Assembly (NCBI RefSeq): GCF_020886055.1
Contig: NZ_AP025184.1
Location: 620,001 to 684,000 of the forward strand
Direction of reading: 5' to 3'
Source of the DNA: Flavobacterium ammoniigenes
Lineage (GTDB): Bacteria; Bacteroidota; Bacteroidia; Flavobacteriales; Flavobacteriaceae
Length of the DNA stretch: 64,000 nucleotides
In this document: positions 1,832 to 34,073 of the stretch, one piece after another
Position numbering within the stretch: the stretch's first letter is position 1
How the letters are laid out: each line of letters begins with the position of its first letter
Translations under genes and position numbers: made by a program
Notes under the pieces: generated by a model
What the model was told of the DNA's origin: nothing
The model's input: only the letters and a program-made list of their open reading frames with translations
The model's database searches: none

Positions 1832-1847
1832 CTGTTTTGTGTTTTAA

Positions 1848-3281: not shown

Positions 3282-3330
3282 AAGAATATAAAAATTATTT
3301 TTCGTCTAAATCGTCACTTCTAAAGGTCAT

Positions 3331-4344: not shown

Positions 4345-4347
4345 AAT

Positions 4348-7115: not shown

Positions 7116-7130
7116 CCAAAAATTACAATT

Positions 7131-8183: not shown

Positions 8184-8190
8184 TTTTTGC

Positions 8191-8213
8191 CGCAAAGGCA
8201 CAAAGTCGCAAAG
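8191..8213 (+). repeat. Short GCAAAG-type direct repeat
   Basis: Three near-identical units in a row: CGCAAAG, GCACAAAG, TCGCAAAG, just after the PaaE-like stop codon. It is GC-richer than the flanks. Similar GCAAAG-rich intergenic strings are, from memory, common in Flavobacterium; I cannot verify copy number here. Confidence 0.5.
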
Positions 8214-8230
8214 TTTACAATTGATATATA

Positions 8231-8262
8231 AAAAAACGAGAAGTGATTGCTTCTCGTTTTTT
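8231..8262. terminator. Bidirectional terminator
   Basis: Stem ACGAGAAG / CTTCTCGT with a 6-nt loop, flanked by six A on one side and six T on the other, so it serves both the PaaE-like gene (plus) and the GT9 gene (minus). Its right edge overlaps the GT9 stop codon. Confidence 0.8.
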
Positions 8263-9310: not shown

Positions 9311-9325
9311 ATTATTGTCTGTAGA

Positions 9326-9931: not shown

Positions 9932-9950
9932 CTCTTAGTAAATTGAAAGA

Positions 9951-9958
9951 CAAAGATA
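9951..9958 (-). promoter_or_regulatory. -7 promoter element of DUF4254-GT9
   Basis: TATCTTTG on the minus strand matches TAnnTTTG, about 20 nt before the DUF4254 ATG. No clear TTG lies at the proper distance. Confidence 0.4.
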
Positions 9959-10024
9959 CTTTTTTATACATTTATAGGATGGAAAAACGATTAAAGTTTT
10001 GCCTAAATACTCAAAATTGAAAGT

Positions 10025-10678
10025 ATGCAAATTCATCATCTGTCGGAAAATAATAGTGTTCTAAATCATTTCTTGGGTCAAATTCGCGATGTCAATATCC
10101 ACAACGATAGCCTCCGTTTTAGAAAAAACATGGAGCGCATTGGTGAAATTATGGCCTATGAACTGAGTAAAAATTTGGACTATCAAGCAGTTGTAATTCC
10201 AACTCCGTTAGGAACAAAAGCAACGCAGTATATAAAAAATTCATTGGTGATTTGCTCAATTCTTAGGGCAGGTTTAACACTACACAATGGGTTCTTAAAC
10301 TATTTTGACGCTGCCGAAAACGGATTTATTTCGGCTTACCGCCACCATCCTAATAACGATGATTTTTTCGAAATCATAGTACAGTACCAAGCGGTTGCAG
10401 ATATTACTAATAAAACGGTTGTAATTGTAGATCCAATGTTGGCTACTGGCCAATCTATAGTAGCCGTATTTAAACAATTAATGGAAAGAGGCGCTCCTGC
10501 TATAATTCATATAGCAGTCGTGATTGCCGCGCCTGAAGGAATTGCACATTTAGAAGCGGAACTCCCTGATAATTGCCATCTTTGGATTGCTTCAATAGAC
10601 GATCATCTCAACGAACACAGCTATATTGTCCCTGGATTAGGAGATGCAGGGGATTTGGCATACGGTATAAAATTATAA
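10025..10678 (+). CDS. upp: Uracil phosphoribosyltransferase
   Basis: 217 residues. Converts uracil and PRPP to UMP in pyrimidine salvage, in the cytoplasm. The PRPP-binding loop is VDPMLATGQS (about residues 135-144), with the uracil-binding C-terminal stretch YIVPGLGDAGDLAYG near residues 200-214. Both are typical of type I UPRTases and the length is normal. It converges with the DUF6427-like gene, and the two stop regions overlap by 6 bp. Confidence 0.95.
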   Translation: MQIHHLSENNSVLNHFLGQIRDVNIHNDSLRFRKNMERIGEIMAYELSKNLDYQAVVIPTPLGTKATQYIKNSLVICSILRAGLTLHNGFLNYFDAAENGFISAYRHHPNNDDFFEIIVQYQAVADITNKTVVIVDPMLATGQSIVAVFKQLMERGAPAIIHIAVVIAAPEGIAHLEAELPDNCHLWIASIDDHLNEHSYIVPGLGDAGDLAYGIKL

Positions 10679-11602
10679 TTGGCCCACAAAGGAAAATAAG
10701 CTACACAGCAGTACTAATCCAAACGCTATTTCTTGCTTGAATCTGGTTTGAGAATACTCAAGGTGCGCGCTTGCTAAAATGGCCAAAGGAGCGATAGTAA
10801 ACACTAAAAAATCACTGCTTTTATTTGCAGAAAGCACAAAAACAATGACACCAATAAAAAAGGAAGCGACCATTTTTTTATAGGAAGTTTGTGTCATTGA
10901 TGGACGATGCGATAACGAAATAAACATCGAAAACACAAAAAACAAGGCGACCGAAACATAAATTGAAAAGGCTAGGTTTTGATTGGAATTCGCAAAATAA
11001 TCAAGTGCTAGATCTACTTGCGTGCTTTTATTTAAATATTCCAAAGTATTGATTCCGAAAAAAGAAGTGAAAAACGCAAACAAAATTCCTACGGCAAATA
11101 AGGCAACAAAAGGCAAAACCCAATTCGTATAATCTCTTGAAACCAATAAAATAATCGAAATAAAAACTAATATCAAGAACAAAATGGCCCAAAAATGAAA
11201 AAGCGATGCTAAAATGATCCACAAAGAAGCATCAAATATTTTTTCTTTAGAGGCTTTCATGGACTGCAACGAAATCAAACGGCGCAGGGCTAATAAAACA
11301 AAAAAATTAGCCAACAAAATATTTAAATTGTTCAAAATAGAAGGGAAAAACAACAAAAGTAAGATGAAAAAAACCGCAGTATAACTGCTGTCTTTAGTCA
11401 ATCCATTGCGTTTTCCAATAAAACTTGTCAAGAAAACAGAAGCTAAAATAACTAGAAAAGTAAATCCTTTTTTTAGCAGTAAAACAACCGATGACATCCA
11501 AGAAGTATCTTGAATTTGGTAGATAAAAAAGAAAAACAACACTAAAAATACAATTAAAGCATAATTTAATGGTGTAGATTTTTTAAAAACACTTGCAATC
11601 AT
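10673..11602 (-). CDS. Polytopic membrane protein, DUF6427-like
   Basis: 309 residues, extremely hydrophobic, with about nine to ten membrane segments and short loops. A family with this profile (DUF6427) sits beside upp in many Flavobacteriaceae, and I assign it on size, topology and neighbourhood. No transport or enzymatic motif is visible. The gene converges on upp with a 6-bp overlap and diverges from the small membrane protein at 11738. Confidence 0.75.
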   Translation of the reverse strand: MIASVFKKSTPLNYALIVFLVLFFFFIYQIQDTSWMSSVVLLLKKGFTFLVILASVFLTSFIGKRNGLTKDSSYTAVFFILLLLFFPSILNNLNILLANFFVLLALRRLISLQSMKASKEKIFDASLWIILASLFHFWAILFLILVFISIILLVSRDYTNWVLPFVALFAVGILFAFFTSFFGINTLEYLNKSTQVDLALDYFANSNQNLAFSIYVSVALFFVFSMFISLSHRPSMTQTSYKKMVASFFIGVIVFVLSANKSSDFLVFTIAPLAILASAHLEYSQTRFKQEIAFGLVLLCSLFSFVGQL

Positions 11603-11622
11603 AAGGATATTTTATACTTTTG
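11593..11622 (+). promoter_or_regulatory. Promoter of the 76-residue membrane protein gene
   Basis: TTG (11593-11595), 19 nt, TACTTTTG (11615-11622): a full flavobacterial promoter. It implies a start near 11628 and a leader of about 110 nt that contains the palindrome at 11639-11655. Confidence 0.55.
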
Positions 11623-11638
11623 TCTCGGTAAATATACT

Positions 11639-11655
11639 ACTTGTTTAAAACAAGT
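11639..11655. promoter_or_regulatory. Palindrome in the leader of the 76-residue gene
   Basis: ACTTGTTT, one A, AAACAAGT: a perfect 8-bp inverted repeat 10-20 nt downstream of the predicted transcription start. It is too short in loop to be an RNA hairpin of full length, so an operator for a dimeric regulator is the simpler reading. Confidence 0.4.
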
Positions 11656-11737
11656 TCAAAAAAGATTCGTTTTCAAAATAGCTTTCTTTTTAAAGTACTT
11701 ACTCAAACGCTAAATAAAACTATAATTTTATATCATT

Positions 11738-11968
11738 ATGAAATCATTTTTCGAAGGAATTCAATTTTTATTTGTAGATGTGTTATTTGCTCCACTTGAT
11801 TTTTTAAGATCTTTAGAGTTGTCTTCATGGACTGCTGCTAATGCAATCAACTGGATCTTTATGATCGTTTGTGCTGCTGCTATTGTTTATTGGATCAAAC
11901 AATTACAAATTTTTGACGAAGCAGGTACAGAAAATCAAGATACTACTGCACATTCATTCTTGAAATAA
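11738..11968 (+). CDS. Small membrane protein, possibly DUF6341
   Basis: 76 residues. An amphipathic N-terminus (SFFEGIQFLFVDVLFAPLDFLRSLE), one clear transmembrane helix (about residues 37-55, AINWIFMIVCAAAIVYWI) and a polar tail. A family of this size and pattern (I believe DUF6341) occurs next to upp/purD in Flavobacteriaceae. Function unknown. It has its own promoter with a long leader and converges on purD. Confidence 0.75.
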   Translation: MKSFFEGIQFLFVDVLFAPLDFLRSLELSSWTAANAINWIFMIVCAAAIVYWIKQLQIFDEAGTENQDTTAHSFLK

Positions 11969-11970
11969 TA

Positions 11971-12009
11971 AAAAAAATATTGGAAACTACTTTAAGTCGT
12001 TTCCAATAT
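11971..12009 (-). terminator. Terminator of purD, spanning its stop codon
   Basis: An 11-bp perfect stem (ATATTGGAAAC / GTTTCCAATAT, 11977-12009) with an 11-nt loop, followed on the minus strand by seven T. The upstream arm is coding sequence for the last residues of PurD, so the stop codon at 11987-11989 sits in the loop. Confidence 0.7.
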
Positions 12010-13261
12010 CTCTTCTAAAATACATCTTATCAAATTGAAGCTTAGCGATATTTTGGTAAGATTTTTTTATGGCTTCTTCAAAGTTATCGCCATACGAAGT
12101 CACGGTTAATACACGTCCTCCATTGGATACCACTTGATTGTTTTCTAATTTCGTTCCTGCGTGAAACACAATCGAATCGGTTATATTTTCTAGTCCTGTA
12201 ATGACTTTTCCTTTTTCAAATTCTTCTGGATAACCTCCTGAAACTACCATAATCGTTGTAGCGCTTCTTTGGTCAACTTCTAACGCAATTTGGTCTAGCT
12301 TTTCATTGGCTACCGCCAAAAATAATTCGACTAAATCGGTTTTCAATCTTGGAATGACCACTTCAGTTTCTGGATCGCCCATTCGCACATTGTATTCAAT
12401 CACGATAGGCTCTCCCTTTACATTGATTAACCCAATAAAAACGAATCCTTTGTACGGAATCCCGTCTTTTTGAAATCCGTTAATAGTTGGTTTTACAATG
12501 CGGCTTTCGATTTTTTCCATCAAAATGGCGTCAACATAAGGAACCGGAGAAACTGCTCCCATACCGCCTGTGTTTAGGCCGGTGTCGCCTTCGCCAATAC
12601 GTTTGTAATCTTTGGCTGTTGGTAAAATTTTATAGCTCTTCCCGTCGGTCAAAACGAAACAACTCAATTCAATTCCGTCTAAGAATTCTTCGATTACTAC
12701 TTTGGCGCTAGCAGATCCAAATTTTTGGTGCACCAACATATTGCGCAATTCTTCTTTGGCTTCTGCCAAATCTTGAATAATTAACACGCCTTTTCCGGCA
12801 GCCAAACCATCTGCTTTCAATACATACGGAGGTTGTAGTGTTTCTAAAAATTGGCAACCTTGTTCCACTGTTTCGGCAGTAAAACTATCGTAAGCGGCTG
12901 TTGGGATATTGTGCCTGAATAAGAATTCTTTAGCAAATTCTTTACTTCCTTCTAATTGTGCACCAATAGTTGAGGGCCCAATTACAGGTATCTCTTTTAA
13001 GTCGGCATCGTTCAAGAAGAAATCATAAATTCCTTTTACCAATGGATCTTCTGGACCAACCACAACCATTTCCACTTTTTCTTTCAAGACAAAGTCTTTG
13101 ATAGCAGGAAAATCAGTTGGGTTGATGTTTATATTATTGGCTATTGCTGCAGTTCCCGCATTTCCGGGTGCTACAAAAAGGGTGTCGCAAAGCGGACTTT
13201 GAATCATTTTCCATGCAAATGCATGTTCTCTTCCGCCTGAACCCAATAGTAAAATAGTCAT
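11987..13261 (-). CDS. purD: Phosphoribosylamine-glycine ligase
   Basis: 424 residues. Catalyses ATP-dependent joining of phosphoribosylamine and glycine, the second step of de novo purine synthesis. An N-terminal Rossmann-like domain (ILLLGSGGREHAFAWKM, residues 3-19), the ATP-grasp domain with YVLKADGLAAGKGV (about 131-144), the metal-binding YNVRMGDPETE (about 290-300) and the C-terminal domain are all present. Length is standard. Monocistronic, with its own terminator. Confidence 0.97.
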   Translation of the reverse strand: MTILLLGSGGREHAFAWKMIQSPLCDTLFVAPGNAGTAAIANNININPTDFPAIKDFVLKEKVEMVVVGPEDPLVKGIYDFFLNDADLKEIPVIGPSTIGAQLEGSKEFAKEFLFRHNIPTAAYDSFTAETVEQGCQFLETLQPPYVLKADGLAAGKGVLIIQDLAEAKEELRNMLVHQKFGSASAKVVIEEFLDGIELSCFVLTDGKSYKILPTAKDYKRIGEGDTGLNTGGMGAVSPVPYVDAILMEKIESRIVKPTINGFQKDGIPYKGFVFIGLINVKGEPIVIEYNVRMGDPETEVVIPRLKTDLVELFLAVANEKLDQIALEVDQRSATTIMVVSGGYPEEFEKGKVITGLENITDSIVFHAGTKLENNQVVSNGGRVLTVTSYGDNFEEAIKKSYQNIAKLQFDKMYFRRDIGNDLK

Positions 13262-13285
13262 GTTGTAGTTGTATTAGTTGTGGTG

Positions 13286-13293
13286 CAAAAATA
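13286..13293 (-). promoter_or_regulatory. -7 promoter element of purD
   Basis: TATTTTTG on the minus strand, about 25 nt before the purD ATG; no TTG at the expected spacing. Confidence 0.35.
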
Positions 13294-13361
13294 ATGGCTT
13301 TTGAACGGAAATTATAATTAATTTTTAAAAATTATTCTTGTTCGAAAAGCCAAATCAATAG

Positions 13362-14345
13362 TTATTTAATATAATTCGAAAAATCTTTGTGTTCCTCTTT
13401 TGACAATTCTTCCGGAGAAAGGGATTTGAAATACTCATAGGTAATTTTCATTCCTTCGGCACGGCCCACTTTGGCTTCCCATCCTAATAATTCTTTGGCT
13501 TTGCTAATGTCGGGTTGACGCTGTAAAGGATCGTTTATGGGCAGCGGATGATACACCACTTTTTGATTGGTGCCTGTTAATTTGATGATTTCTTCAGCGA
13601 AATCCTTGATGGTAATTTCGTCTGGATTTCCAATATTCACCGGATACACATAGTCAGAATGCAAGAGTCTGTAAATTCCTTCCACCTGATCGTCCACATA
13701 ACAAAACGAACGCGTTTGCATCCCGTCGCCAAAAATGGTTAAATCCTCTCCGCGGATGGCTTGCCCTATAAAAGCCGGGATTACGCGTCCGTCGTTGAGG
13801 CGCATTCTTGGTCCGTAAGTGTTAAAAATTCGAACAATTCGAGTTTCTACACCATGAAAAGTATGGTACGCCATAGTAATCGATTCTTGGAAACGTTTGG
13901 CTTCGTCATACACGCCTCTTGGACCTATTGTATTTACGTTGCCGTAGTATTCTTCGGTTTGTGGGTGCACCAAAGGATCGCCATAGACTTCAGAAGTCGA
14001 AGCAATTAATATGCGTGCTTTTTTTACGCGTGCCAATCCCAACAAATTATGAGTGCCAAGCGAACCTACTTTTAAGGTTTGAATTGGAATTTTCAAATAA
14101 TCGATTGGACTTGCTGGCGAAGCAAAATGCAAAATATAATCTAACTTTCCTGGAACGTGAACAAATTTAGTAATGTCATGGTGGTAGAATTCGAAGTTTT
14201 CAAGCTTGAATAAATGCTCGATATTTTTCAAATCGCCCGTAATCAAATTGTCCATCCCGATAACAAAATAGCCTTCTTTGATAAATCGGTCACAAAGATG
14301 CGACCCTAAAAATCCCGCCGCTCCTGTTATCAATATTCGTTTCAT
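13362..14345 (-). CDS. UDP-glucuronate decarboxylase (UXS-type SDR)
   Basis: 327 residues, an extended SDR. NAD-binding motif [10 protein letters not shown] (about residues 8-17), the catalytic STSEVYGDP and YDEAKR (about 116-150), and the UXS-specific segments [11 protein letters not shown] and [10 protein letters not shown]. It converts UDP-glucuronate to UDP-xylose, a precursor of envelope polysaccharide, in the cytoplasm. UDP-xylose synthases and dTDP-glucose dehydratases are close relatives, but the [11 protein letters not shown] and [17 protein letters not shown] strings favour UXS. It follows the DUF6909-like gene by 17 bp and is probably in that unit. Confidence 0.9.
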
Positions 14346-14362
14346 AGTAAATTGGTATTGCC

Positions 14363-16039
14363 TTATTTTACATTAAAAATTTGTTCCAAAATTTTGATCG
14401 TAATCAAATAAGTTGGTTTTACTCCTGTAGTCCCTAAACCTCCTGAAGCCAATGTGCTTCCGGTTTCTAGTGGATTATCTGAAGCATAATAAGCATAGCG
14501 CACTTTGATGTCTTTGGGTACGCTTTTTCTAATTCTCGAAGCCGATTGAATGGCTTTTTGATAATAGGCGCCTTCCATTTCTAATCCGATGGCTCTCCAA
14601 GTCGATTCGTGGAAAAATTGCAACAAATCCCTGTTTTGCAATGAGGTCCCCAAAACCGTGACCATGGGTCCTGCAAAAACAGCAATGTCATTGCCTTCAA
14701 ACATATCGGCAGTTAATTCATTTTCAAAAAAGTAATTATCTGCCGTTCCTTCATTGATATGGGCATTCGGAATCATAATATCTCCCTTGCCTCCTTCTAA
14801 AATTCCGGCCTTTCCCATAATTGAAATCGACTGGGCGTTCAAGAAGGTATCTTTTTTGTACGGTTTGAACAACTCGTCTATCGTTTCGTAGGCTTGCTCG
14901 CCAAAGGCGTAATCCATAACAATTATTACGGGTTTTTCTTCGCCTAAATCAGCTTTTGGGAAAGATGTTTTGCTCCAATCTATTTTAGCCGTGTCAAAAA
15001 TTTGTACATCGATATTCGTTCCTGAAGTGTCGGGTAGCGAAATCATCCCTTGTTTCAAGGCAATCGCTTCGACTAGATCGCGAACTTCATTCGCACCTGA
15101 TTTACTTAATTCCTCATAAATAAAGAAATCGGTTTGGTTTTTGAATTTCGTTTTCAGGGCAGGAACCGCAAAAATAGAGTTCATCACCGAGTGCATATTG
15201 GCACTAATCACGTGGATAGGTCTGCCTAATAAATTGTTTTCTTTTAAAACTTCTTTGATATTGGTCGCCCAAATCTCTCCATGAATATGGTGTCCCAAAC
15301 GCTCTCTCAACACTGGGCTGAACGTAATGGTGCGTTTGTTATTTTCAACCATTTCTTCGATGGCTAATTTTCCTAACCAATAAATAACGTGTAAAAATCG
15401 ATCTGGAGTTGTCGCTGAGCCAAAGGCATCATAGATGTCTAAAATTTCTTCAAAAGTTCTGCCCAAAATATTAGCAGTATGAGAAATCGCTTTTTCTTTC
15501 TCTACTTGAGTTAGTTTTTTATTGTGCTGAACGGCAATTTCTAATTTTTTCCAATCGTGTGATACCTCTCCTGCTTCGTCCAACAACACTCTGTTTTTGA
15601 TCTTGTGCGATTCAATAAAAATGAAAGTCAGGTGGGTCAAAATATCATAAATATCGGAACGACCACGAGTAATCACTACGTTCATTTGGTCTTCGTCAAT
15701 ACGATAGCAATTACGGCGTCTTTTGGGAGGAACAATCGCTTTGAAGTGCGATTTTGCATAACCTTCTTCTGAAGTCAGGTTGATGAATCGGCATTCTTCG
15801 ATTCCAATTGGGAGGCGTTCAATAACGTACAAGAGTCCGTTAAGTTCTACTTTTTCATCGGCAATGTTTCCGTAAATTTCTGGGCGTAAAGCTAATAAAG
15901 CTTCTCGTAAAGTGTCTCCAGAAACTCCCATCGGCTTGTAAAAACCGCGGTTGAATAAATGCCTCATGGTAATGTACAGTCGTTCAATAGCTGCTGACGA
16001 CTCTTGCGCTCGTGAGCGCGAAATGTTTTTAGTATCCAT
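14363..16039 (-). CDS. Conserved protein with C-terminal nucleoside-phosphorylase-like domain
   Basis: 558 residues, possibly family DUF6909. The first 340 or so residues are helical and unassigned, with [29 protein letters not shown] and [10 protein letters not shown] as conserved-looking parts. From about residue 369 the sequence reads like an NP-1 phosphorylase: a hydrophobic strand ([13 protein letters not shown]), [12 protein letters not shown], then GLEMEGAYY (485-493), the ribose/phosphate signature of MTA/SAH nucleosidases and phosphorylases, and YYASDNP (517-523) in the place of the catalytic Asp. A nucleotide- or nucleoside-cleaving activity is inferred. It follows a GH3 adenylating enzyme by 35 bp and precedes UXS by 17 bp. 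Confidence 0.85.
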
Positions 16040-16074
16040 ACTTTTCTATTATTTAACCCGCAAAGATACTAGAT

Positions 16075-17562
16075 TTATTTTGGGTTTAGCGCATCGGCTA
16101 TTTTTCTATCGTTTGACAGTCGCGGGATTTTGTTCTGCCCTCCTAATTTCCCGATCGATTTCATATAGTCTTGAAAACCGTTTTTTGAGACGTTGGTAAT
16201 TACCAATGGCCGCAAAACATTCCCCACAATTAAATCGTCATAATAGACATTTTGCTTGCGCATCGCATCGTCAATTTGTAATGCAAATACAGCTAAATTA
16301 TCGGGGGCGTTTTCAAATTCAATTAGCCATTCATGGTAAGGCAATCCTTCGGTTGGGTTAATTTGAGGCGCGACTGTAAATTCATTAACGCGAATTGATG
16401 TCCCTTCCATAGCTTCTTGCAAAGCGCTTTCTACCTCTTTGCCAATCACATGTTCGCCAAAAGCGGAAATATAATGTTTGATTCGGCCCGAAACCACTAC
16501 TCGATAAGGTGCTAAACTGGTAAATTGAACCGTGTCGCCAATATTATAACCCCAAAGGCCCGCATTAGTTGATAGAATTAAAACGTAATTCACCCCCAAT
16601 TCGACTTCGCCAATGGTATAACGACGAGGGTTTTCGGCAGAAAATTCCTCGCTCTTAATAAATTCATAGAAAATTCCGGAATTCAATAACAACAACATGC
16701 CTTTCTCTTTTTGGGAATCTTGGTAGGCAAAAAACCCTTCAGAAGCAGGGAAAAGTTCAATTGAATCGACTTTTCGACCTATTAAATTTTCAAATTTAGC
16801 ACGGTACGGTTCGTAATTGACCCCGCCATAAATAAACAAATTGAAATTGGGGAAAATGTCTCCAACAGGCTTATTGGCTTTTTGTTGTAGTTTTTCGAAA
16901 TACATTTGAACCCAAGACGGAATTCCAGAAATGACCGACATGTTTTCGTTGAATGTTTCTTCCACAATAGCGTTGACTTTGGTTTCCCAATCTTCAATAC
17001 AATTGGTTTCCCATGAAGGCATGCGGTTTTTTTGTAAATATTTTGGAACAAAATGCGCTACAATTCCTGACAAACGGCCAAGATTAATTCCGTTTTTTTC
17101 TTCCAAAATCGGGCTGCCTTGCAAGAAAATCATTTTACCATCTACAAAATCAGCCTTGCCTGTTTCGTGAATGTAATGTAAAATAGCATTACGAGCTGCC
17201 TCGATATGATACGGCATGGATTCCTTGGTCAGCGGAATGTATTTGGCTCCCGAGGTAGTTCCTGAAGTTTTAGCAAAATACAACGGTTTGCCTTTCCAAA
17301 GTACGTTCTCCTCGCCTTTCACCACGCGATCAACATAGGGTTTTAATTGTTCGTAATCACGAACAGGAACTTGTTGAGCAAAATCAGACGGAGTTTGTAT
17401 TTGTTCAAAATGATGGTCTTTTCCAAATTGCGTGTTTTTCGCTTGACGAATTAATTCTTGGAAAACTTTGTTTTGGGTCGCAACTGAATTAGATGACCAG
17501 GCTTTGGTTTTTTTGACTACTTGACTTGCAAATAACCGGGCTGCAATTGATTTTATAGACAT
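16075..17562 (-). CDS. GH3-family acyl-adenylate-forming enzyme
   Basis: 495 residues of the GH3 auxin-responsive promoter family. ATP-binding motif YFAKTSGTTSGAKYIPLT (about residues 95-112), then SEGFFAYQD and the hinge region GRIKHYISAFGEHVIGKEVESAL (about 355-377). Plant GH3 enzymes adenylate carboxylic acids and join them to amino acids; bacterial members are common in Bacteroidota with unknown substrates. It is encoded 12 bp after a small membrane anchor and 35 bp before the phosphorylase-like protein. Family is secure, substrate unknown. Confidence 0.92.
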   Translation of the reverse strand: MSIKSIAARLFASQVVKKTKAWSSNSVATQNKVFQELIRQAKNTQFGKDHHFEQIQTPSDFAQQVPVRDYEQLKPYVDRVVKGEENVLWKGKPLYFAKTSGTTSGAKYIPLTKESMPYHIEAARNAILHYIHETGKADFVDGKMIFLQGSPILEEKNGINLGRLSGIVAHFVPKYLQKNRMPSWETNCIEDWETKVNAIVEETFNENMSVISGIPSWVQMYFEKLQQKANKPVGDIFPNFNLFIYGGVNYEPYRAKFENLIGRKVDSIELFPASEGFFAYQDSQKEKGMLLLLNSGIFYEFIKSEEFSAENPRRYTIGEVELGVNYVLILSTNAGLWGYNIGDTVQFTSLAPYRVVVSGRIKHYISAFGEHVIGKEVESALQEAMEGTSIRVNEFTVAPQINPTEGLPYHEWLIEFENAPDNLAVFALQIDDAMRKQNVYYDDLIVGNVLRPLVITNVSKNGFQDYMKSIGKLGGQNKIPRLSNDRKIADALNPK

Positions 17563-17572
17563 GGAACGGGAT

Positions 17573-18061
17573 TTATTTTTTCTTTTGTGAAGATTGTTCC
17601 TCTTCTTTATTTACTTGTTTTCGCAATTCTAATTCTTCTTTTGAGGCCGACAAATCACCCTCTATTTGGTTTTTTTCTACAGAAGATAGGATCGAATCTT
17701 TATTGAATTTGGCAAATTCTAATTCGCCCGTCAATACTTTTTTTAGCGATTTGATATAGGCTTCATTGTATTCTATTGCCCGTGTTAATGAATCCGATTT
17801 TAAAGCAAGTTCTGTAGCGGCTATTTTTAGTTTAGAAGAGGAATAGCCGGGAATAAACTCGCGTAATGGAGTAAAAGCGATGATAAAAGTAGTAACAAAA
17901 ATGATGAAAATAGCCCCTAAACCCAAGACCACAAAAACATTCATCAAGGTCAATTTTAACGAAAAAGTTTCTTCAAAAGTGTCTTCGTTCAAAATAATCA
18001 AACGCCTTTTGTTGAACAGATTTTCTTTTAATTGTTGTTTAAAGAGCCTTTTATCAAACAT
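17573..18061 (-). CDS. Membrane anchor resembling the N-terminus of an M23 peptidase
   Basis: 162 residues: a basic cytoplasmic start with KRRLIILNEDTFEETFSLKL, one transmembrane helix (about 43-65), and a periplasmic helical stretch with coiled-coil character ending in a KEEEQSSQKKK tail. From memory, proteins that start this way in related species continue into a C-terminal M23 (LytM) peptidase domain with H-x-H; none is present, and the next gene begins 10 bp later. A TTG-initiated version 7 codons longer is possible but overlaps a promoter element. Function uncertain, perhaps a regulator or degenerate relative of a cell-wall hydrolase. Confidence 0.75.
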   Translation of the reverse strand: MFDKRLFKQQLKENLFNKRRLIILNEDTFEETFSLKLTLMNVFVVLGLGAIFIIFVTTFIIAFTPLREFIPGYSSSKLKIAATELALKSDSLTRAIEYNEAYIKSLKKVLTGELEFAKFNKDSILSSVEKNQIEGDLSASKEELELRKQVNKEEEQSSQKKK

Positions 18062-18079
18062 GGATTTTAGTTTATTGAA

Positions 18080-18087
18080 CAAATATA
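18080..18087 (-). promoter_or_regulatory. -7 promoter element of the M23-like anchor and GH3 unit
   Basis: TATATTTG on the minus strand, 19 nt before the ATG at 18061. It overlaps the alternative TTG start, which supports the ATG. Confidence 0.4.
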
Positions 18088-18198
18088 AACAATTAAACGC
18101 TTTATGCTATGGCTATAATATGAAGGAACAAATGCTGTTTTGTCTCATTTTAATAGAATTTTAACGCATTTAAAAACAAATAATTCGTGAAAAAAGAA

Positions 18199-18227
18199 TT
18201 GCCATTCACTAATTCTATATACATTTG
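18199..18227 (+). promoter_or_regulatory. Promoter of tatA
   Basis: TTG (18199-18201), 18 nt, TACATTTG (18220-18227): full consensus. Predicted leader of about 40 nt. Confidence 0.65.
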
Positions 18228-18273
18228 TACTTCATTAAAAAACAAATTTGCTTCGGCATTAAAATAGTAAATC

Positions 18274-18447
18274 ATGGGAAGATTAGGTGTTACAGAAATC
18301 CTTGTTATTTTAGCAGTTGTATTATTGCTTTTTGGAGGTAAAAAAATTCCAGAACTTATGAAAGGTTTAGGAAGCGGAATTAAAGAATTTAAAAACGCTG
18401 CTAAAGACGATTCATCTGCAAAGAAAGAAGAAGATACTAAAGAGTAA
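18274..18447 (+). CDS. tatA: Sec-independent translocase TatA
   Basis: 57 residues, [20 protein letters not shown] then [22 protein letters not shown] short periplasmic start and one transmembrane helix, a GGKKIPEL hinge and an amphipathic helix are the standard TatA/E layout; the tail is charged. TatA forms the pore of the twin-arginine pathway for folded proteins. Monocistronic, with a strong promoter and a bidirectional terminator. tatC is not in the window. Confidence 0.95.
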
Positions 18448-18465
18448 TTTTTTAGACATTCTAAT

Positions 18466-18500
18466 AAAAAAACCCAAGTTAATCAACTTGGGTTTTTTTG
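18466..18500. terminator. Bidirectional terminator between tatA and tex
   Basis: A 10-bp perfect stem AACCCAAGTT / AACTTGGGTT with loop AATC, flanked by A7 and T7. It ends both tatA (plus) and tex (minus). Confidence 0.9.
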
Positions 18501-18503
18501 TTT

Positions 18504-20627
18504 TTATAATATCATTGTTAATTGAATGCGTTTTCGATCCTCGTCGACCTCAGTCACTTTTACCTCAACATGTTGGTGTAATTTGACTACTTCGTTTACA
18601 TCGCTTACAAAACCCGCTTTGAGTTGGGAAATATGAACCAAACCACTTTCTTTAATTCCGATATCTACGAAACAACCAAAGTTGGTAATGTTATTCACAA
18701 TGCCTGGTAAAATCATTCCTGATTTCAAGTCTTTAATCGATTTTACATTCGGGTCAAACTCAAAAACCTTAGCTGATTTTCTAGGGTCTAAACCTGGTTT
18801 TTCTAGTTCTTTAATAATGTCTTTCAAAGTTAAAATTCCTATTTCTGGCGTAGTATAATTTTCTGCTTTAATTAAGGCTGTTTTCTCTTTGTTTCCAATT
18901 AATTCTTGGACCGAAAGCTTTAAATCTTTGGCTATTTTTTCTACAATGAGATAGGCTTCTGGATGCACTGCCGAATTATCCAACGGATTTTTTCCGTCTT
19001 TAATTCGGATAAAGGCCGCGCCTTGTTGGAAGGCTTTTTCGCCCAAGCGAGGCACCTTTTTTAATTGTTTTCGGTCGTTAAACGGGCCGTTTTCGGAACG
19101 GTATTGCACAATGTTTTCGGCTAGCTTCTCTCCTATTCCACTCACATAACTCAATAAATGTTTGCTCGCTGTATTGATGTTGATTCCTACCGAGTTTACA
19201 CAACGAATTACAGTAACATCCAATTCTTCTTTTAATTTATTTTGATCCACGTCGTGTTGGTATTGGCCTACGCCAATGGCTTTTGGGTCAATCTTAACCA
19301 GCTCTGCCAAAGGATCACTTAGTCGTCGCCCAATAGAAACCGACCCTCGAACGGTAACATCGTAATTAGGGAATTCTTCGCGGGCGATTTTTGATGCCGA
19401 ATAGACCGAAGCGCCTGCCTCAGAAACCACAAAAACTTGAACCTCTTTGTCAAAAGCAATTTTTTTGACAAAAAATTCGGTTTCTCGGGAAGCGGTTCCG
19501 TTGCCAATAGCTATCGCATCAATTTTATAAGAATTGACCATGGAGCGGATTTTTTTCATCGCCATGGCGTCTTCATTTTGAGGTGCGTGTGGGTAAATCG
19601 TTTCGTTGTACAACAGATCGCCTTTTTCGTCCAAACACACTATTTTACATCCCGAACGATAGCCTGGATCAATCGCTAAAATTCGTTTTTCACCCAAAGG
19701 CGGTGCAAGTAAAAGCTGACTAAGATTGGTTGCAAAAACCTGAATAGAATTGGCATCGGCTTTAGCCTTAGCTTCTTGTAAGGTTTGGTTCGCAATAGCA
19801 GGAAGCAACAAACGTTTGTAACTGTCTTCAATCGCTAGTTGAATGTGGGGCGTGGTATAGTTTTGCGCTTTTAAAACCAATTCGTCAATAATGTCGTAAG
19901 CCTCATCGATATCTACCTCTATTTTTAGCTTGACAAAACCTTCGTTTTCGGCTCGCAGCATCGCCATCAATCGGTGCGGGGGAGTTTTGATTAACAATTC
20001 TGACCAGTCGAAATATTGTGTGAATTTTTGAGCCGCCTCGTCGTCTTTTTTGGTTTTAACCACCTTAGTGGTAATCGTAGCTTGTCGCTGAAACAAGCGT
20101 CGCAATTGTTGACGAACATGAATGTTTTCATTAATCCATTCAGCAATAATATCACGTGCGCCTTGCAAGGCAGCTTCTTCGTTGATAACATTTTCATTGA
20201 TGTACTGTGTCGAAATAAAATCAATGGCGTCGTTTTTTTGTGCGAAAATAATAGTTGCCAAAGCCTCTAGACCATTTTCTCGCGCCACATCGGCCTTGGT
20301 TTTTTTCTTCTTTTTAAATGGCAAATACAAATCTTCCAACTCTTGTAAATCGAAACTGTCTTGAAGTTTTTTTGCTAATTCAGGAGAAAGTTGTCCTTGC
20401 TCCTCAATGGTTTTAAGAATACTTTCTTTGCGTTTGATTAATTCGTCGTACTGCTTATTGAGTTTGGCAATTTGCTCAATTACCACCTCGTCTAAATTCC
20501 CTGTTTGGTCTTTTCGGTACCTAGAAATAAATGGGATGGTGCAATCTTCGTTTAATAGTTGAACCGTTTTTTGAATATTGATCGCCGCAGTCGCTACTGA
20601 TTTTCCTATGAATTGAATGTTGGTCAT
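18504..20627 (-). CDS. tex: Tex family RNA-binding transcription accessory protein
   Basis: 707 residues. Tex N-terminal helical region (FISRYRKDQTGNLDE), a YqgF/RNase H-like domain starting ILAIDPGYRSGCKI (about residue 319), the helix-hairpin-helix part SVGININTASKHLLSYVSGI followed by GEKLAENIVQYR, and a C-terminal S1 domain (about 632-705, GMILPGIVNNITNFGCFVDI). Tex binds nucleic acids and RNA polymerase and affects transcription and stress survival. Slightly short compared with the 720-780 usual. It diverges from the DUF1294 gene and ends at the shared terminator. Confidence 0.95.
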   Translation of the reverse strand: MTNIQFIGKSVATAAINIQKTVQLLNEDCTIPFISRYRKDQTGNLDEVVIEQIAKLNKQYDELIKRKESILKTIEEQGQLSPELAKKLQDSFDLQELEDLYLPFKKKKKTKADVARENGLEALATIIFAQKNDAIDFISTQYINENVINEEAALQGARDIIAEWINENIHVRQQLRRLFQRQATITTKVVKTKKDDEAAQKFTQYFDWSELLIKTPPHRLMAMLRAENEGFVKLKIEVDIDEAYDIIDELVLKAQNYTTPHIQLAIEDSYKRLLLPAIANQTLQEAKAKADANSIQVFATNLSQLLLAPPLGEKRILAIDPGYRSGCKIVCLDEKGDLLYNETIYPHAPQNEDAMAMKKIRSMVNSYKIDAIAIGNGTASRETEFFVKKIAFDKEVQVFVVSEAGASVYSASKIAREEFPNYDVTVRGSVSIGRRLSDPLAELVKIDPKAIGVGQYQHDVDQNKLKEELDVTVIRCVNSVGININTASKHLLSYVSGIGEKLAENIVQYRSENGPFNDRKQLKKVPRLGEKAFQQGAAFIRIKDGKNPLDNSAVHPEAYLIVEKIAKDLKLSVQELIGNKEKTALIKAENYTTPEIGILTLKDIIKELEKPGLDPRKSAKVFEFDPNVKSIKDLKSGMILPGIVNNITNFGCFVDIGIKESGLVHISQLKAGFVSDVNEVVKLHQHVEVKVTEVDEDRKRIQLTMIL

Positions 20628-20684: not shown

Positions 20685-20966
20685 ATGCCGCTTATATATT
20701 TTTATTTTTTACTGGTTTCTTTGATTTGTTTCATCTTGATAGGGTTCGACAAAAATGCCGCTCGAAACCGAAAAAGAAGAATTCCTGAAACCACCTTGTT
20801 AATATGGTGTTTGTTTGGAGGAAGTATAGGTGGGGGAATTGGAATGTGGGTATTTAAACACAAAACTTCCAAAAGAAGTTTCCTTTGGAAGTTGTATGGT
20901 GTTGTTTTATTTCAAATTTTAATAGGGCTAGTGCTCTATTATTATGAAGTTATTCGTGTTTATTGA
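20685..20966 (+). CDS. DUF1294 family membrane protein
   Basis: 93 residues. Two or three membrane helices with the DUF1294 landmarks: FILIGFDKNAARNRKRRIPE, then LLIWCLFGGSIGGGIGMWVFKHKTSK. Function unknown in all species. Converges on rpiB with a 7-bp overlap of the 3' ends. Confidence 0.9.
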   Translation: MPLIYFYFLLVSLICFILIGFDKNAARNRKRRIPETTLLIWCLFGGSIGGGIGMWVFKHKTSKRSFLWKLYGVVLFQILIGLVLYYYEVIRVY

Positions 20967-21391
20967 CAAGCGATTTTGTTCACGCGGTTTTGGTGTCTTC
21001 CACCTTCAAATTCAGTATTTAAAAACGTTTCAACCATTTCTACTGCTTGCGGAATAGAAGTATAACGAGCCGGAATACTGATCACATTCGCATCATTGTG
21101 TAAACGTGCTAAAGCTGCGATTTCTTTCATCCAACACAAAGCGGCACGCACTTTTTGATGTTTGTTTACCGTCATGGCAATTCCGTTTCCGCTTCCACAA
21201 ATCACGATTCCAAAATCAGCTTTTCCTTCTTCTACATCTTGAGCAACTGGATGCGCCATATCTGGATAATCTACCGCGTCGAAAGAATCGGTTCCGTAAT
21301 TAATGATTTGGTGTCCTTTTGCTTCAAGCATAGCCACAATTGCTTTTTTATACTCAGGGCCAGCGTGGTCGTTTCCAATAGAAATTTTCAT
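20960..21391 (-). CDS. rpiB: Ribose 5-phosphate isomerase B
   Basis: 143 residues. Interconverts ribose 5-phosphate and ribulose 5-phosphate in the pentose phosphate pathway. The N-terminal SIGNDHAGPEYK (residues 3-14), the active-site Cys in GIVICGSGNG (about 62-71) and RAALCWMKEIAALARLHNDANVI with its second-subunit histidine match RpiB. Length is normal. It reads away from the candidate replication origin. Confidence 0.95.
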   Translation of the reverse strand: MKISIGNDHAGPEYKKAIVAMLEAKGHQIINYGTDSFDAVDYPDMAHPVAQDVEEGKADFGIVICGSGNGIAMTVNKHQKVRAALCWMKEIAALARLHNDANVISIPARYTSIPQAVEMVETFLNTEFEGGRHQNRVNKIACQ

Positions 21392-21416
21392 GATTGTTGT
21401 ATGTTAAATTCGTGTT

Positions 21417-21424
21417 CAAAAATA
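21417..21424 (-). promoter_or_regulatory. -7 promoter element of rpiB
   Basis: TATTTTTG on the minus strand, 26 nt before the rpiB ATG; no TTG at the usual spacing. Confidence 0.4.
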
Positions 21425-21488
21425 AGGAAAGATTTTGAGTTAGAATTCATAAATAGTGTGGTTTCTTTGTTTCTTTTTAAGGTGAAAA

Positions 21489-21506
21489 GCTGTTTTAGTA
21501 AACAGC
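21489..21506. repeat. Inverted repeat at the left of the origin candidate
   Basis: GCTGTTT, TAGT, AAACAGC: a perfect 7-bp stem with a 4-nt loop and no T-run after it. Confidence 0.5.
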
Positions 21507-21876
21507 ATTCTAAATAGCAGTGAAACAACTAGTTGCTAAAAACCATATTTATAATACTTTATAATTTATTTAATAACGTTTGTAATTTAGTATCGAATTT
21601 GTTAAAATTTTGAATTGTTAATAGTGATTTGTAATCTGTTGATTTTCAGCTAACATTAAATTAACACATTGTGTTCATAACTCAAGATAGAAAATAAGAA
21701 CTTTTTGGTAGAGGAAAACAAAAATTATGTAATCCAAAACCGGGTTCAAAAAACCTAATTTAGTTTGTTTAATTTTTAGAAAAGTTATGAATAGAAAAAA
21801 GAAGTTTATCAACAGATTTTGAAAAATTAGTTATCTACAAAAAGAATAAATTTTAGGTTATAAACAACTGTTGATT

Positions 21877-21899
21877 AAAATAAAGAAAGTCTTTATTTT
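21877..21899. repeat. Inverted repeat inside the origin candidate
   Basis: AAAATAAAGA, AAG, TCTTTATTTT: a perfect 10-bp inverted repeat lying directly next to a DnaA-box-like site at 21869-21877. Confidence 0.55.
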
Positions 21900-21909
21900 T
21901 AAATCATTA

Positions 21910-21923
21910 CCTATAAAAATAGG
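21910..21923. repeat. Second inverted repeat inside the origin candidate
   Basis: CCTAT, AAAA, ATAGG: perfect 5-bp stem that abuts the DnaA-box-like site at 21924-21932. Confidence 0.45.
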
Positions 21924-22201
21924 TGTTGATAACTAAAAATAACTAGGGGTAACTTTATTTCAAATCCTTTTTTAAAAAATTTATAGTAACTATTAACACG
22001 CTATAATAACCATTAAAAAATTAATTTTAATTTCCTTTTCTTTTTGTTGTTTTAAATAGATGTTGACAACTTTGAAGTAATTAAAAACTATTTTTATAGA
22101 AAAACAGAGGTGAAGTAAAAGTTATATTTTTACTAAATATGAGTTTTAAAAAAGGTAATCTAATTTCTTATTTGTAATTTTAGGCGTTTAAGAAAAAAAT
22201 T

Positions 22202-24382
22202 ATGGGAAAGCGTTTAAGAAAACCGCTCAAAAAAGAGAAGACCTACTCTGAAAAAATTGTAAAAATACTATCTCAAAATGCTAATAAAGTATATAACTAC
22301 AAGCAAATAGCAGCTATATTAGATCTAGATGATACACAAAGTAGAAATCAAATTATAAAAGATTTAAAAATTTTAGCCGCTCAAAAAACAATCATTGAAT
22401 CAGAACCTGGAAAGTATTTAGTAAAAGCGATTAGTCAAGATTATTACGAAGGTAAAATTGATATGACAGGTCGAAAAACTGCTTATTTTGTTTGTCCAGA
22501 TTTAGAAGAAGATGTTTTTATTCCAACTAATAATTTAAATAGAGCTTTAGATAAAGACACGGTTAAAGTGTATATCTATAACCGAAGAAAAGGACGTCGA
22601 CCAGAAGGTGAAGTAATTGAAGTTATCGAAAGAAATAAAACCGATTTTGTAGGAGTAATTGATATTCAAAAGAATTTTTCTTTTGTATCAACAGCAAATC
22701 CAAAAATGTATACTGATATTTTTATTCCAAAAGATAAAATAGGAGAGGCAGAACAAGGAGATGTGGTTTTGGTTCATATTGAAGATTGGCCTAAAAGAGC
22801 TGATAGTCCTTTTGGAAAAGTGATAAAAGTACTAGGAAAACCAGGGGAACATAACACTGAAATTCACGCTATTTTAGCCGAATATGGTTTACCTTCTGAA
22901 TTTCCTATTGAAGTAGAAACCTATGCTCAAAAAATTGATACAACTATTCAAGCCTCTGAAATAGCAAAGCGTCGCGATATGCGTGATACTTTGACTTTTA
23001 CCATCGATCCAAAAGATGCAAAAGATTTTGATGATGCGTTGTCTTTCAAAAAGTTAGAAAACGGTAATTATGAAATTGGAATTCATATTGCTGATGTTTC
23101 TTTTTATTTAGAAGAAGGAACTATTTTAGATGATGAAGCCTATCAAAGAGCTACTTCTGTCTATTTAGTAGATCGAGTAGTGCCTATGTTACCTGAAGTA
23201 TTGTCAAATTTTGCTTGTTCTTTACGACCTCAAGAAGAAAAATATACTTTTTCAGCGGTATTTGAAATCAATGAAAAAGCTCAAGTGATGAATCAATGGT
23301 TTGGAAGAACAGTTATTTTTTCTGATCAACGTTTTGCTTACGAAGAGGCGCAATATATTATCGAAACTAAAGATAATACTATTCCTCAAGAAATATCTAT
23401 TACAGGAGAGTCGTATCAAGTTTCAGAACCAATTGTTGATGCTACTTTAAAACTACAAGAATTAGCTAAAATATTACGTAGAAATAGAATGAACGAAGGC
23501 GCTATTTCGTTTGATAAAGTAGAAGTAAAATTCAATTTAGATCAAGAAGGAGAACCAGCTGGAGTGTATTTCAAAATATCAAAAGATGCGAATCATTTGA
23601 TTGAAGAATTCATGTTGCTAGCGAATAGAAAAGTGGCTGAGTTTATTGGTAAACAAAAGAAAACGTTTATTTATCGTATTCACGATGAGCCTAATGAAGA
23701 TAAATTGATTGCGATGCAAACAGTTATTGCTAAGTTTGGTTATAAAATTGACTTTAGAAACAAAGGAGATATTTCCAAATCATTAAACAATTTATTAACT
23801 GAAGTTGTAGGTACTAAAGAGCAAAATCTAATTGATACACTAGCTATTCGTAGTATGAGTAAAGCTAAATATTCTACGGATAATATTGGTCATTACGGAC
23901 TAGCGTTTGATTATTATTCCCATTTTACTTCTCCTATTCGTAGATATCCTGATGTGATGGTGCATCGTTTGTTGCAATTTTATTTAGATGGAGGAAAATC
24001 AGCCGATGAAGAAAGTTATGAAGCGAAATGTTTACACTCATCTACAATGGAAGGTTTAGCTACCAATGCTGAACGGGATTCTATTAAATACATGCAGGTT
24101 AAATACATGCAAAACCATCAAGATCAAGAGTTTTTAGGAGTAATTTCAGGAGTAACCGAATGGGGAATTTACGTAGAAATTATCGAAAATAAATGTGAAG
24201 GTATGGTCCGAATTAGAGATATTAAAGAGGATTATTATACTTTTGACGAAAAGCAATATGCGTTAGTTGGTGCTACTTCTCATGGTTTATTACAATTAGG
24301 AGATGAGATTTATGTCAAAGTAAAAAATGCCGATTTAGTAAAAAAACAATTGGATTTTCACTTTATCAGAAGAAACGAATAA
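22202..24382 (+). CDS. rnr: Ribonuclease R
   Basis: 726 residues, a 3'-5' exoribonuclease of the RNB (RNase II) family that degrades structured RNA. An N-terminal winged-helix-like domain (about 14-75), cold-shock/OB domains, the RNB catalytic core with the acidic motif DPKDAKDFDDALS (about 269-281) and NIGHYGLAFDYYSHFTSPIRRYPD (about 560-583), and a C-terminal S1 domain (about 645-725). Length is normal. It is the first gene to the right of the origin candidate and starts a three-gene run with the head-GIN protein and LysE. Confidence 0.97.
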   Translation: MGKRLRKPLKKEKTYSEKIVKILSQNANKVYNYKQIAAILDLDDTQSRNQIIKDLKILAAQKTIIESEPGKYLVKAISQDYYEGKIDMTGRKTAYFVCPDLEEDVFIPTNNLNRALDKDTVKVYIYNRRKGRRPEGEVIEVIERNKTDFVGVIDIQKNFSFVSTANPKMYTDIFIPKDKIGEAEQGDVVLVHIEDWPKRADSPFGKVIKVLGKPGEHNTEIHAILAEYGLPSEFPIEVETYAQKIDTTIQASEIAKRRDMRDTLTFTIDPKDAKDFDDALSFKKLENGNYEIGIHIADVSFYLEEGTILDDEAYQRATSVYLVDRVVPMLPEVLSNFACSLRPQEEKYTFSAVFEINEKAQVMNQWFGRTVIFSDQRFAYEEAQYIIETKDNTIPQEISITGESYQVSEPIVDATLKLQELAKILRRNRMNEGAISFDKVEVKFNLDQEGEPAGVYFKISKDANHLIEEFMLLANRKVAEFIGKQKKTFIYRIHDEPNEDKLIAMQTVIAKFGYKIDFRNKGDISKSLNNLLTEVVGTKEQNLIDTLAIRSMSKAKYSTDNIGHYGLAFDYYSHFTSPIRRYPDVMVHRLLQFYLDGGKSADEESYEAKCLHSSTMEGLATNAERDSIKYMQVKYMQNHQDQEFLGVISGVTEWGIYVEIIENKCEGMVRIRDIKEDYYTFDEKQYALVGATSHGLLQLGDEIYVKVKNADLVKKQLDFHFIRRNE

Positions 24383-31431: not shown

Positions 31432-31451
31432 GTTAACTTTTTTATCTTTTG

Positions 31452-31459
31452 CAAATATA
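31452..31459 (-). promoter_or_regulatory. -7 promoter element of gltX
   Basis: TATATTTG on the minus strand, 20 nt before the gltX ATG. The 288-bp gap between gltX and ybeY otherwise holds only the ybeY promoter element and an unlikely 63-codon frame. Confidence 0.4.
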
Positions 31460-31669
31460 GCTTCAAATTATGTATTTTTTAATTGATTTTTTTACGCACA
31501 TGTATTCTCTCAATTTTGTATCCCAAAATACTAATTCACCTGCCGGTTTTATTTATGGGTTACTGGAGTTATATGTGGAGCATCATGTAACTTCTCATCC
31601 TTATTTAGGCAGTAACTATTCCGTATTTAGAATATTGTACTCACATGAAAATATTAATTAGACAATCAT

Positions 31670-31677
31670 TACCTTTG
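31670..31677 (+). promoter_or_regulatory. -7 promoter element of ybeY-mnmG
   Basis: TACCTTTG, about 42 nt before the ybeY ATG; no TTG at the expected distance. Confidence 0.45.
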
Positions 31678-31719
31678 CGTTCGGATTTTAACTAAAAGAT
31701 TCATTTTTTTTATTACAAC

Positions 31720-32145
31720 ATGATTGATTTTAATTACGAAACGGAGTTTACAATAGAGAACGAAGAAGCAATTGCTACTTGGTTGTCTCGAGTAATTGTT
31801 TCTGAAAACAAAAAAGAAGGAGAGATTAATTACATTTTTTGTGATGATGAATACCTTTTAAAAATCAACTTAGAATACCTAAATCACGACACGCTCACGG
31901 ATATTATTAGCTTTGACTATTCCATGGGTAACGAACTCAATGGAGATATTTTTGTTTCGGTCGAAAGGGTTCGAGACAACGCAAACGATTTTAAAGTTTC
32001 GTTCGAAGACGAACTTAAACGCGTTCTAGTTCACGGGATATTACACTACTGTGGTTACAAGGACAAAACAGACGAAGAGGAAAAAATAATGCGTTCTAAA
32101 GAAGACGAAAAATTAGCAATGTTTCACGTGGAACACAAACAATAA
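31720..32145 (+). CDS. ybeY: Endoribonuclease YbeY
   Basis: 141 residues. Zinc-dependent RNase for 16S rRNA 3'-end maturation and ribosome quality control. The metal-binding motif H-G-x-L-H-Y-x-G-Y-x-D appears as VHGILHYCGYKD (about 107-118), with the family's SFDY and GDIFVS earlier. The last codons (FHVEHKQ) coincide with a parS-like 16-mer. 38 bp before mnmG, likely one unit. Confidence 0.95.
   Translation: MIDFNYETEFTIENEEAIATWLSRVIVSENKKEGEINYIFCDDEYLLKINLEYLNHDTLTDIISFDYSMGNELNGDIFVSVERVRDNANDFKVSFEDELKRVLVHGILHYCGYKDKTDEEEKIMRSKEDEKLAMFHVEHKQ
32120..32135. other. parS: parS site (ParB-binding) inside the 3' end of ybeY
   Basis: TGTTTCACGTGGAACA is the exact reverse complement of TGTTCCACGTGAAACA, which fits the broad bacterial consensus TGTTNCACGTGAAACA at every fixed position. 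It encodes Phe-His-Val-Glu-His of YbeY. About 10 kb from the origin candidate, where ParB/Spo0J would load for segregation. Confidence 0.85.
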
Positions 32146-34057: not shown

Positions 34058-34073
34058 TGTTCCACGTGAAACC
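34058..34073. other. parS: Second parS-like site, just after mnmG
   Basis: TGTTCCACGTGAAACC matches TGTTNCACGTGAAACA except for the last base. It begins 3 nt after the mnmG stop, in the mnmG-methyltransferase gap, and is 1.9 kb from the first site. Confidence 0.75.

Follow-up and report, generated by a model that had tools for sequence, protein, structure and literature searches.

A predicted replication origin between rpiB and rnr, distant from dnaA, in Flavobacterium ammoniigenes

The rpiB-rnr gap and its sites

The stretch of DNA analyzed here (hereafter the window, 64 kb in length) spans positions 620001-684000 of a genome assembled as a single contig of 2,263,087 bp, the sequence record of which starts at dnaA. 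Within the window, the divergent genes rpiB and rnr are separated by a gap, 21392-22201, that runs exactly from the start of the one to the start of the other and is located at 641.4-642.2 kb of the chromosome. The first-pass annotation had remarked that dnaA was not adjacent, and indeed 641 kb separate the two. The DnaA family has one match in the genome, a 475-codon frame in which the recognition-helix region is present. The features of the region, with counts referring to an alignment of 65 gaps described below, are as follows:

20960..21391, minus strand: rpiB, ribose-5-phosphate isomerase B, flanking gene; across the order it stays nearer to parS than rnr does
21392..22201, no strand: predicted oriC, the gap between divergent rpiB and rnr; 810 bp, 21.7% GC; 75/80 relatives have a divergent rnr no more than 4 kb from rpiB
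22202..24382, plus strand: rnr, ribonuclease R, flanking gene
21536..21635, no strand: least stable 100 bp of the window, a candidate unwinding element; near-equal minima at 21822, at 22078 and, outside the gap, at 6983
21600..22100, no strand: conserved core; identity to 63 relatives has a median of 0.70 (somewhat inflated by free alignment) versus 0.39 at rnr fourfold sites
21672..21680, minus strand: box-like site TTATGAACA; TTATNAACA in 64/65 aligned gaps
21730..21738, plus strand: TAATCCAAA, identical in 64/65 aligned gaps; candidate site for DnaA or another factor
21785..21793, plus strand: box-like site TTATGAATA; mostly TTATCAAT in relatives (48/65, scored as the 9-mer from 21784)
21806..21814, plus strand: DnaA-box-like TTATCAACA; the same in 8/65, TTTTCAACA in 42/65
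21831..21839, plus strand: DnaA-box-like TTATCTACA; identical in 44/65, TTATTTACA in 20/65
21858..21866, plus strand: DnaA-box-like TTATAAACA; the same in 5/65, TTGTCAACC or TTGTTAACC in 38/65
21869..21877, minus strand: DnaA-box-like TAATCAACA; the same in 2/65, TAATTAACA in 50/65
21924..21932, minus strand: DnaA-box-like TTATCAACA, exactly 93 bp from the 21831 site; identical in 48/65
22061..22069, minus strand: DnaA-box-like TTGTCAACA; identical in 46/65
32120..32135, plus strand: parS-like site with one mismatch, the only match in the genome at that threshold (≤1 mismatch)
34058..34073, plus strand: parS-like site with two mismatches, directly after mnmG; one other two-mismatch site lies at 1128 kb of the chromosome

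The description of the gap as the large gene-free stretch of the window, and as its most AT-rich part, holds. Mechanically called frames of at least 60 codons leave nine gaps of 150 bp or more, among which it ranks first in length (the runner-up has 421 bp), and the 12 lowest-GC 500-bp segments, taken in 50-bp steps, all begin at 21401-21951. Two further gaps may be hidden by short frames (11603-11986, 384 bp, and 31432-31719, 288 bp); both are shorter and less AT-rich, and neither has a site with ≤1 mismatch to the DnaA box. The flanking atp genes (694-3256) and mnmG (32184-34055) were both located. A switch in gene orientation at the gap, for which 19 of 24 genes leftward on the left and 23 of 38 rightward on the right had been counted, was recounted with similar results: among frames of at least 60 codons, 18/23 read leftward to the left and 24/39 rightward to the right, the right side being barely biased. 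The corresponding figures for frames of at least 100 codons are 16/18 and 21/36. The leftward genes at 11987-20627, from purD to the gene before rpiB, have the third-position GC skew of the other replichore. The window also contains the type IX secretion lipoprotein PorW/SprE (4348-6945, NF052312) and a Flavo-1 RNA (52423-52495, Rfam RF01705, 70.6 bits).

All six 9-mers that had been listed at one or two mismatches from the DnaA box are present (21806, 21831, 21858, 21869, 21924, and 22061), and the gap has further two-mismatch sites at 21672 and 21730. No perfect TTATCCACA was found in the gap, the sites being variants. Between 21806 and 22069, there are six sites with ≤2 mismatches against a mean of 0.94 in 1000 dinucleotide shuffles, none of which reached six, and three with ≤1 mismatch against a mean of 0.06, again reached in 0/1000. 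Over the whole gap, eight sites with ≤2 mismatches compare with 3.04 in shuffles, 7/1000 of which had as many, so that these loosest sites, taken alone, are only modestly unusual. Three sites within one mismatch of TTATCCACA in 300 bp form the densest cluster in the 704 kb sampled for box density (31% of the 2.26-Mb genome), where the maximum elsewhere is two (226 sites). Across the entire window, TTATNNACA showed no clear excess (20 versus 15.2 expected, 11/100 shuffles), and genome-wide TTRTYWACA was not over-represented (359 matches versus 466 for the reversed pattern), so that its clustering alone stands out.

The two perfect inverted repeats said to abut boxes were confirmed at 21877-21899 (arms of 10, loop of 3) and 21909-21924 (arms of 6, loop of 4), and, as judged by eye, they are not kept in the consensus of the relatives. 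A structured RNA in the gap was considered and rejected, with no Rfam match and a fold of 21900-22201 at z -1.25. Promoter-like matches in the gap were about as frequent as in shuffles (8 versus 6.4).

Strand composition around the gap

To tell the effect of replication strand from that of gene orientation, we scored G against C at third codon positions, reading every gene on its own strand. The sample consisted of the window and 40 further stretches of 16 kb each, with 495 frames of 150 codons or more. A two-switch model placed the origin at 630-635 kb and the terminus at about 1715 kb (plateau 1710-1770 kb), while an origin at dnaA (0 kb) was 108 overdispersion-scaled quasi-log-likelihood units worse. 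Bootstrapping of genes over 60 rounds, with the origin searched between 400 and 900 kb in 10-kb steps, returned a median of 630 kb (2.5-97.5% range, 538-640 kb). For raw GC, a coarse cumulative curve interpolated from the sample had its minimum at 636 kb and its maximum at 1796 kb; for third positions, these lay at 608 and 1750 kb. Moreover, all three 16S genes are co-directional with forks leaving 642 kb; the leading strand carries only 55% of the sampled genes. The GC-skew minimum, which had been proposed as a check on the gap, did not refute it when located in this sample (630-635 kb for the switch versus 641.4-642.2 kb for the gap) and led to the rejection of dnaA.

The best switch in this single genome nevertheless lies 10-11 kb to the left of the gap, which fits 2.3 to 5.3 units worse. 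The displacement arises because the genes from purD to the one preceding rpiB have right-hand-type skew (0.00 to +0.15). This offset is a real mark against an exact placement of the origin at the gap; it may reflect local codon-usage noise or a recent rearrangement. Highly expressed genes favor certain third bases and can shift an estimate made from a single genome.

For a pooled test, we used stretches around rnr from this genome and from five other single-contig Flavobacterium genomes (G158, G090, G170, G109, and G040). In G158, G090, and G170, the gap was ≤0.8 units from the genome's own best point, G109 was uninformative, and G040 favored -7 kb, with the gap 3.3 units worse. When all six were pooled, the best switch fell 1.5 kb to the left of the rnr start, with tested points from -4 to +1 kb within 2.3 units, while -10 kb was 18.6 units worse and +11 kb, the place of mnmG in this genome, 28.1 units worse. 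The best point stayed between -4 and -1.5 kb when each genome was left out in turn, and 300 bootstrap rounds gave a median of -3.0 kb (2.5-97.5% range, -5.5 to -1.0 kb), with 92% in the interval from -4 to +1 kb. Since the gaps in these genomes are 0.8-2.8 kb long, the pooled estimate lies at the gap or slightly to its left. Two genomes from other genera of the family were kept outside the pool; G078 accepts the gap (0.4 unscaled units), and G028 prefers -37 kb, the gap being 6.7 unscaled units worse.

Conservation of the gap and of its neighborhood

The relatives examined were the 80 best RpiB matches in a species-genome collection, a set that leans to species near this one. The closest formally named species among them is Flavobacterium ammonificans GENT11 (RpiB 96% identical, chromosome of 2,271,028 bp), and three metagenome-assembled genomes are closer still (97-98%). 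A divergent rnr within 4 kb of rpiB was found at 75 of the 80 loci, with gaps of 708-2894 bp and a median GC of 24%; the five loci that were dropped comprise four with no rnr match, three of which are short loci, and one with rnr 4.7 kb off. The 75 gaps contain a mean of 2.4 boxes versus 0.40 in shuffles. Those of L044, L054, L081, and L091 (4/75), and that of G040, had no site with ≤1 mismatch to TTATCCACA, and many others had one. In L045, the gap of 2873 bp has four TTATCCTCA words at multiples of 168 bp, resembling a tandem repeat at an origin gap.

An alignment of 65 rows was built that included the window, leaving out 11 of the 75 relatives' gaps (at least 1450 bp), and entire blocks of it are near-invariant. 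The core at 21600-22100 was above the rnr fourfold sites in 63/63 relatives (the rnr frame was obtained for 63 of 64), with a median identity that would be 0.33 from base composition alone and that, coming from free alignment of AT-rich DNA, is somewhat inflated relative to the codon-anchored fourfold sites. Conservation reaches the rnr start. Four box-like sites hold nearly fixed positions across the 65 gaps: TTATNAACA at 21672 (64/65), TTATCTACA or TTATTTACA at 21831 (64/65), TTATCAACA or TTATTAACA at 21924 (60/65), and TTGTCAACA or TTTTCAACA at 22061 (63/65). At 21806, 21858, and 21869, the positions are kept and the spelling is mostly different. A spacing of exactly 93 bp between the 21831 and 21924 sites was seen in 44/76 gaps, that of the window included. 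A fairer measure of this exact pair than the best 80 relatives is an even draw of the genus, in which it occurs in 37/199 genomes including this one, once in each, and the reversed pattern in none; in the three others where its place could be checked (G019, G117, and G131), it lies just upstream of rnr. The spelling of TAATCCAAA at 21730-21738 is more constant than that of any DnaA-box-like site scored, and it is possibly the site of another factor.

The parS-like sites that had been reported 10-12 kb from the gap were found at 32120 and 34058. They stand at both ends of mnmG, and one overlaps the 3′ end of ybeY. At the looser threshold of ≤3 mismatches, 11/100 shuffles of the window give as many matches. 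We then considered 26 genomes of the order, defining a parS-like site as ≤1 mismatch to the parS consensus. Besides this genome and that of F. ammonificans GENT11, the set had 24 single-contig genomes, hand-picked over several families from a larger number. Such sites were present in 21/26 genomes, and 44/46 of them lie within 60 kb of rpiB (1.45 expected), whereas 0/46 lie within 60 kb of dnaA. In all 26 genomes, dnaA is at least 640 kb from rpiB, which amounts to 19-48% of the chromosome.

The association of rpiB with rnr varies across these genomes. A divergent rnr within 3.6 kb of rpiB was seen in 13/13 same-family genomes checked for both, while the two genes are in tandem within 1 kb in 6/7 genomes of family f4. 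In the five genomes of families f6, f3, and f12, rnr is 27-157 kb from rpiB, and parS (found in four of the five) lies within 45 kb of rpiB, which looks to be the better marker of the origin region in this order. The 800 bp upstream of rpiB have at least two sites with ≤1 mismatch in 5/7 f4 genomes (G186 has one, G144 none), and the 1 kb upstream of rpiB in the f6, f3, and f12 genomes has 1-4 such sites. These sequence patterns suggest that the f4 origin stays with rpiB. At the f4 loci L222, L223, L229, L230, and L231, box-like sites occur just upstream of rpiB, two genomes having a perfect TTATCCACA, and parS is about 3-6 kb away, with one more at 9.7 kb.

We also considered whether the box spelling co-varies with the DnaA recognition helix, and this was rejected. 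The helix RDHATVLHA is common to Flavobacterium and the other same-family genera looked at, yet a perfect TTATCCACA is present in the gap of five of seven other genera (G059, G069, G101, G121, and G198), so that a change in the helix does not explain the spelling. The recognition-helix patterns had no match in the five f4 loci.

The gap as the probable chromosome origin

The pooled skew, the conservation, the geometry of the boxes, and the order-wide clustering of parS near rpiB agree in supporting the candidate origin of the first-pass annotation. We consider it highly likely that chromosome replication in this Flavobacterium starts bidirectionally from a single origin (oriC), the rpiB-rnr gap. 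Very probably it is an origin of an ordinary kind, sited where automatic annotation is prone to overlook it; the atp operon and the inverted repeats add little to this reading. Counting against it are the leftward displacement of the switch in this genome, in G040, and in G028, the presence of the exact 93-bp pair in only 37/199 genus genomes, the gaps without a site at ≤1 mismatch, and the lack of a perfect TTATCCACA in the gap itself. The classical DnaA-dependent origins of Escherichia coli and Bacillus subtilis combine a DnaA-box cluster with AT-rich DNA at the skew switch, with parS nearby in B. subtilis. The gap likewise has a box cluster, made up of variant sites, a skew switch to within a few kilobases with six genomes pooled (the single-genome best being 10 kb to the left), and parS-like sites in its neighborhood, and it is a single site in the chromosome in that the exact box pair occurs once in the whole genome and the box density is highest here within the 31% sampled. 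It differs from the classical origins in that dnaA is not nearby and in that the sites carry A or T at the second C of TTATCCACA. DnaA, supplied in trans from its gene 641 kb away, would bind the array (core near 21806-22069, with outer sites at 21672 and 21785) and open the neighboring AT-rich DNA, whereupon the replicative helicase would be loaded on both strands and forks would leave both ways toward a terminus near 1.71-1.77 Mb. Segregation of the new origins may then fall to ParB at the parS-like sites, which lie 10-12 kb rightward.

Other placements of the origin are less compatible with these data. An origin near purD (window 11.6-20 kb), as much as about 12 kb leftward of the gap, would make the gap merely a conserved regulatory region and would agree with the best fit of this genome (630-635 kb, or -11 kb from rnr) and with the plus-strand third-position skew of 0.00 to +0.15 in the genes at 11987-20627. 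However, the switch falls at -1.5 kb when only the five other Flavobacterium genomes are pooled, the influence of highly expressed genes on third bases can account for a shift of a single-genome estimate, no TTATNNACA occurs at 1151-17552 (single ones are at 17553, 18691, and 20960), and the gaps at 11603-11986 and 18083-18503 are without a site at ≤2 mismatches; we regard this placement as unlikely. An origin adjoining mnmG (32184-34055) has in its favor the flanking parS-like sites and the Ori-Finder predictions for Mariniflexile and Algorimicrobium (PMC11278836, PMC12843772). It is disfavored by the skew test, in which +11 kb is 28.1 units below the best point of the pool and fits less well than the gap in all six genomes taken singly, with mnmG itself located in this genome only. 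Furthermore, there is no listed gap of at least 150 bp between 28939 and 34972, the 288-bp gap under a short frame lacks a site at ≤1 mismatch, and TTATNNACA occurs once nearby (31038), all of which makes an mnmG-side origin very improbable.

The sequence record itself, by starting at dnaA, follows a convention, and dnaA adjoins oriC in many bacteria; nothing beyond this convention speaks for an origin there. The deficit of 108 quasi-log-likelihood units, strand-controlled skew without a sign change at dnaA, neither a box cluster nor an AT-rich gap on either side of it, and a 16S gene at 1338 kb that would be head-on leave such an origin a negligible probability, and skew and the missing box cluster already refute it as far as composition can. 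The remaining alternative concerns function rather than place, with the gap acting as a DnaA-binding control region, whether by titrating DnaA or through DnaA-regulated promoters of its two flanking genes. As these diverge, the gap is indeed expected to contain promoters for both, and the conservation extends to the rnr start, but the skew switch and the parS clustering fall in the same neighborhood, and neither an unusual RNA fold in 21900-22201 (z -1.25) nor an Rfam match in the gap was seen; a control region in place of an origin therefore seems hardly probable.

Mariniflexile litorale is of the same family as this Flavobacterium. Its authors noted that the position of dnaA disagreed with the GC skew plot, and with Ori-Finder they placed oriC by mnmG, a displacement of about 10 kb given the gene order of this genome; the text and a figure legend disagree over which position is oriC and which is ter (PMC11278836). 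The origin of Algorimicrobium was likewise taken by mnmG, as its account of the genome states (PMC12843772). In the sister genus Tenacibaculum, the section on origins gives Ori-Finder 2022 predictions adjacent to rpiB in 6/7 circular chromosomes and near rpiB in the seventh (PMC9864904). These are likewise by rpiB and are software predictions; the text of the paper nowhere mentions rnr, and in that section neither a box array nor conservation is given (PMC9864904). Similar to the situation here, the origin of Elizabethkingia meningoseptica was predicted far from dnaA (740.7 kb versus 2613 kb), with three DnaA boxes in 649 bp counted with TTATCCACA, in the part of the report that deals with it, where the flanking genes are not named (PMC8994065). 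Ori-Finder 2022, as its description of defaults puts it, takes dnaA as marker, adjusted to the lineage entered, and TTATCCACA as box (PMC10225481). A further feature of bacterial oriC is the DnaA-trio motif, or BUS element (PMC8287927). In the open-licence literature, we found no report naming the rpiB-rnr gap as an origin and, in the portions of that literature covered, no experimental origin mapping in this family. The location of the origin is, then, a known kind of prediction in the family, to which the present analysis adds the site array with its box dialect as well as two tests, that of pooled skew and that of parS across the order.

On balance, we favor a broader proposal, in which Flavobacterium origins have their own DnaA-box dialect (approximately aGTTRTYWACA, with A/T for the second C of TTATCCACA) at eight or nine nearly fixed positions across the divergent rpiB-rnr gap, and in which the origin has been kept with rpiB and parS across Flavobacteriales. 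With dnaA 19-48% of the chromosome away in 26/26 genomes, origin and initiator gene would be uncoupled in the whole order. The true origin is needed for growth-rate estimates from read depth, for the orientation of assemblies, for studies of gene dosage and strand bias, and for replicating Flavobacterium vectors. It would be misplaced in records opened at dnaA and by predictions for which dnaA or mnmG serves as the marker. Finally, a conserved array with a different box sequence would provide a concrete substrate for work on DnaA binding outside the usual models.
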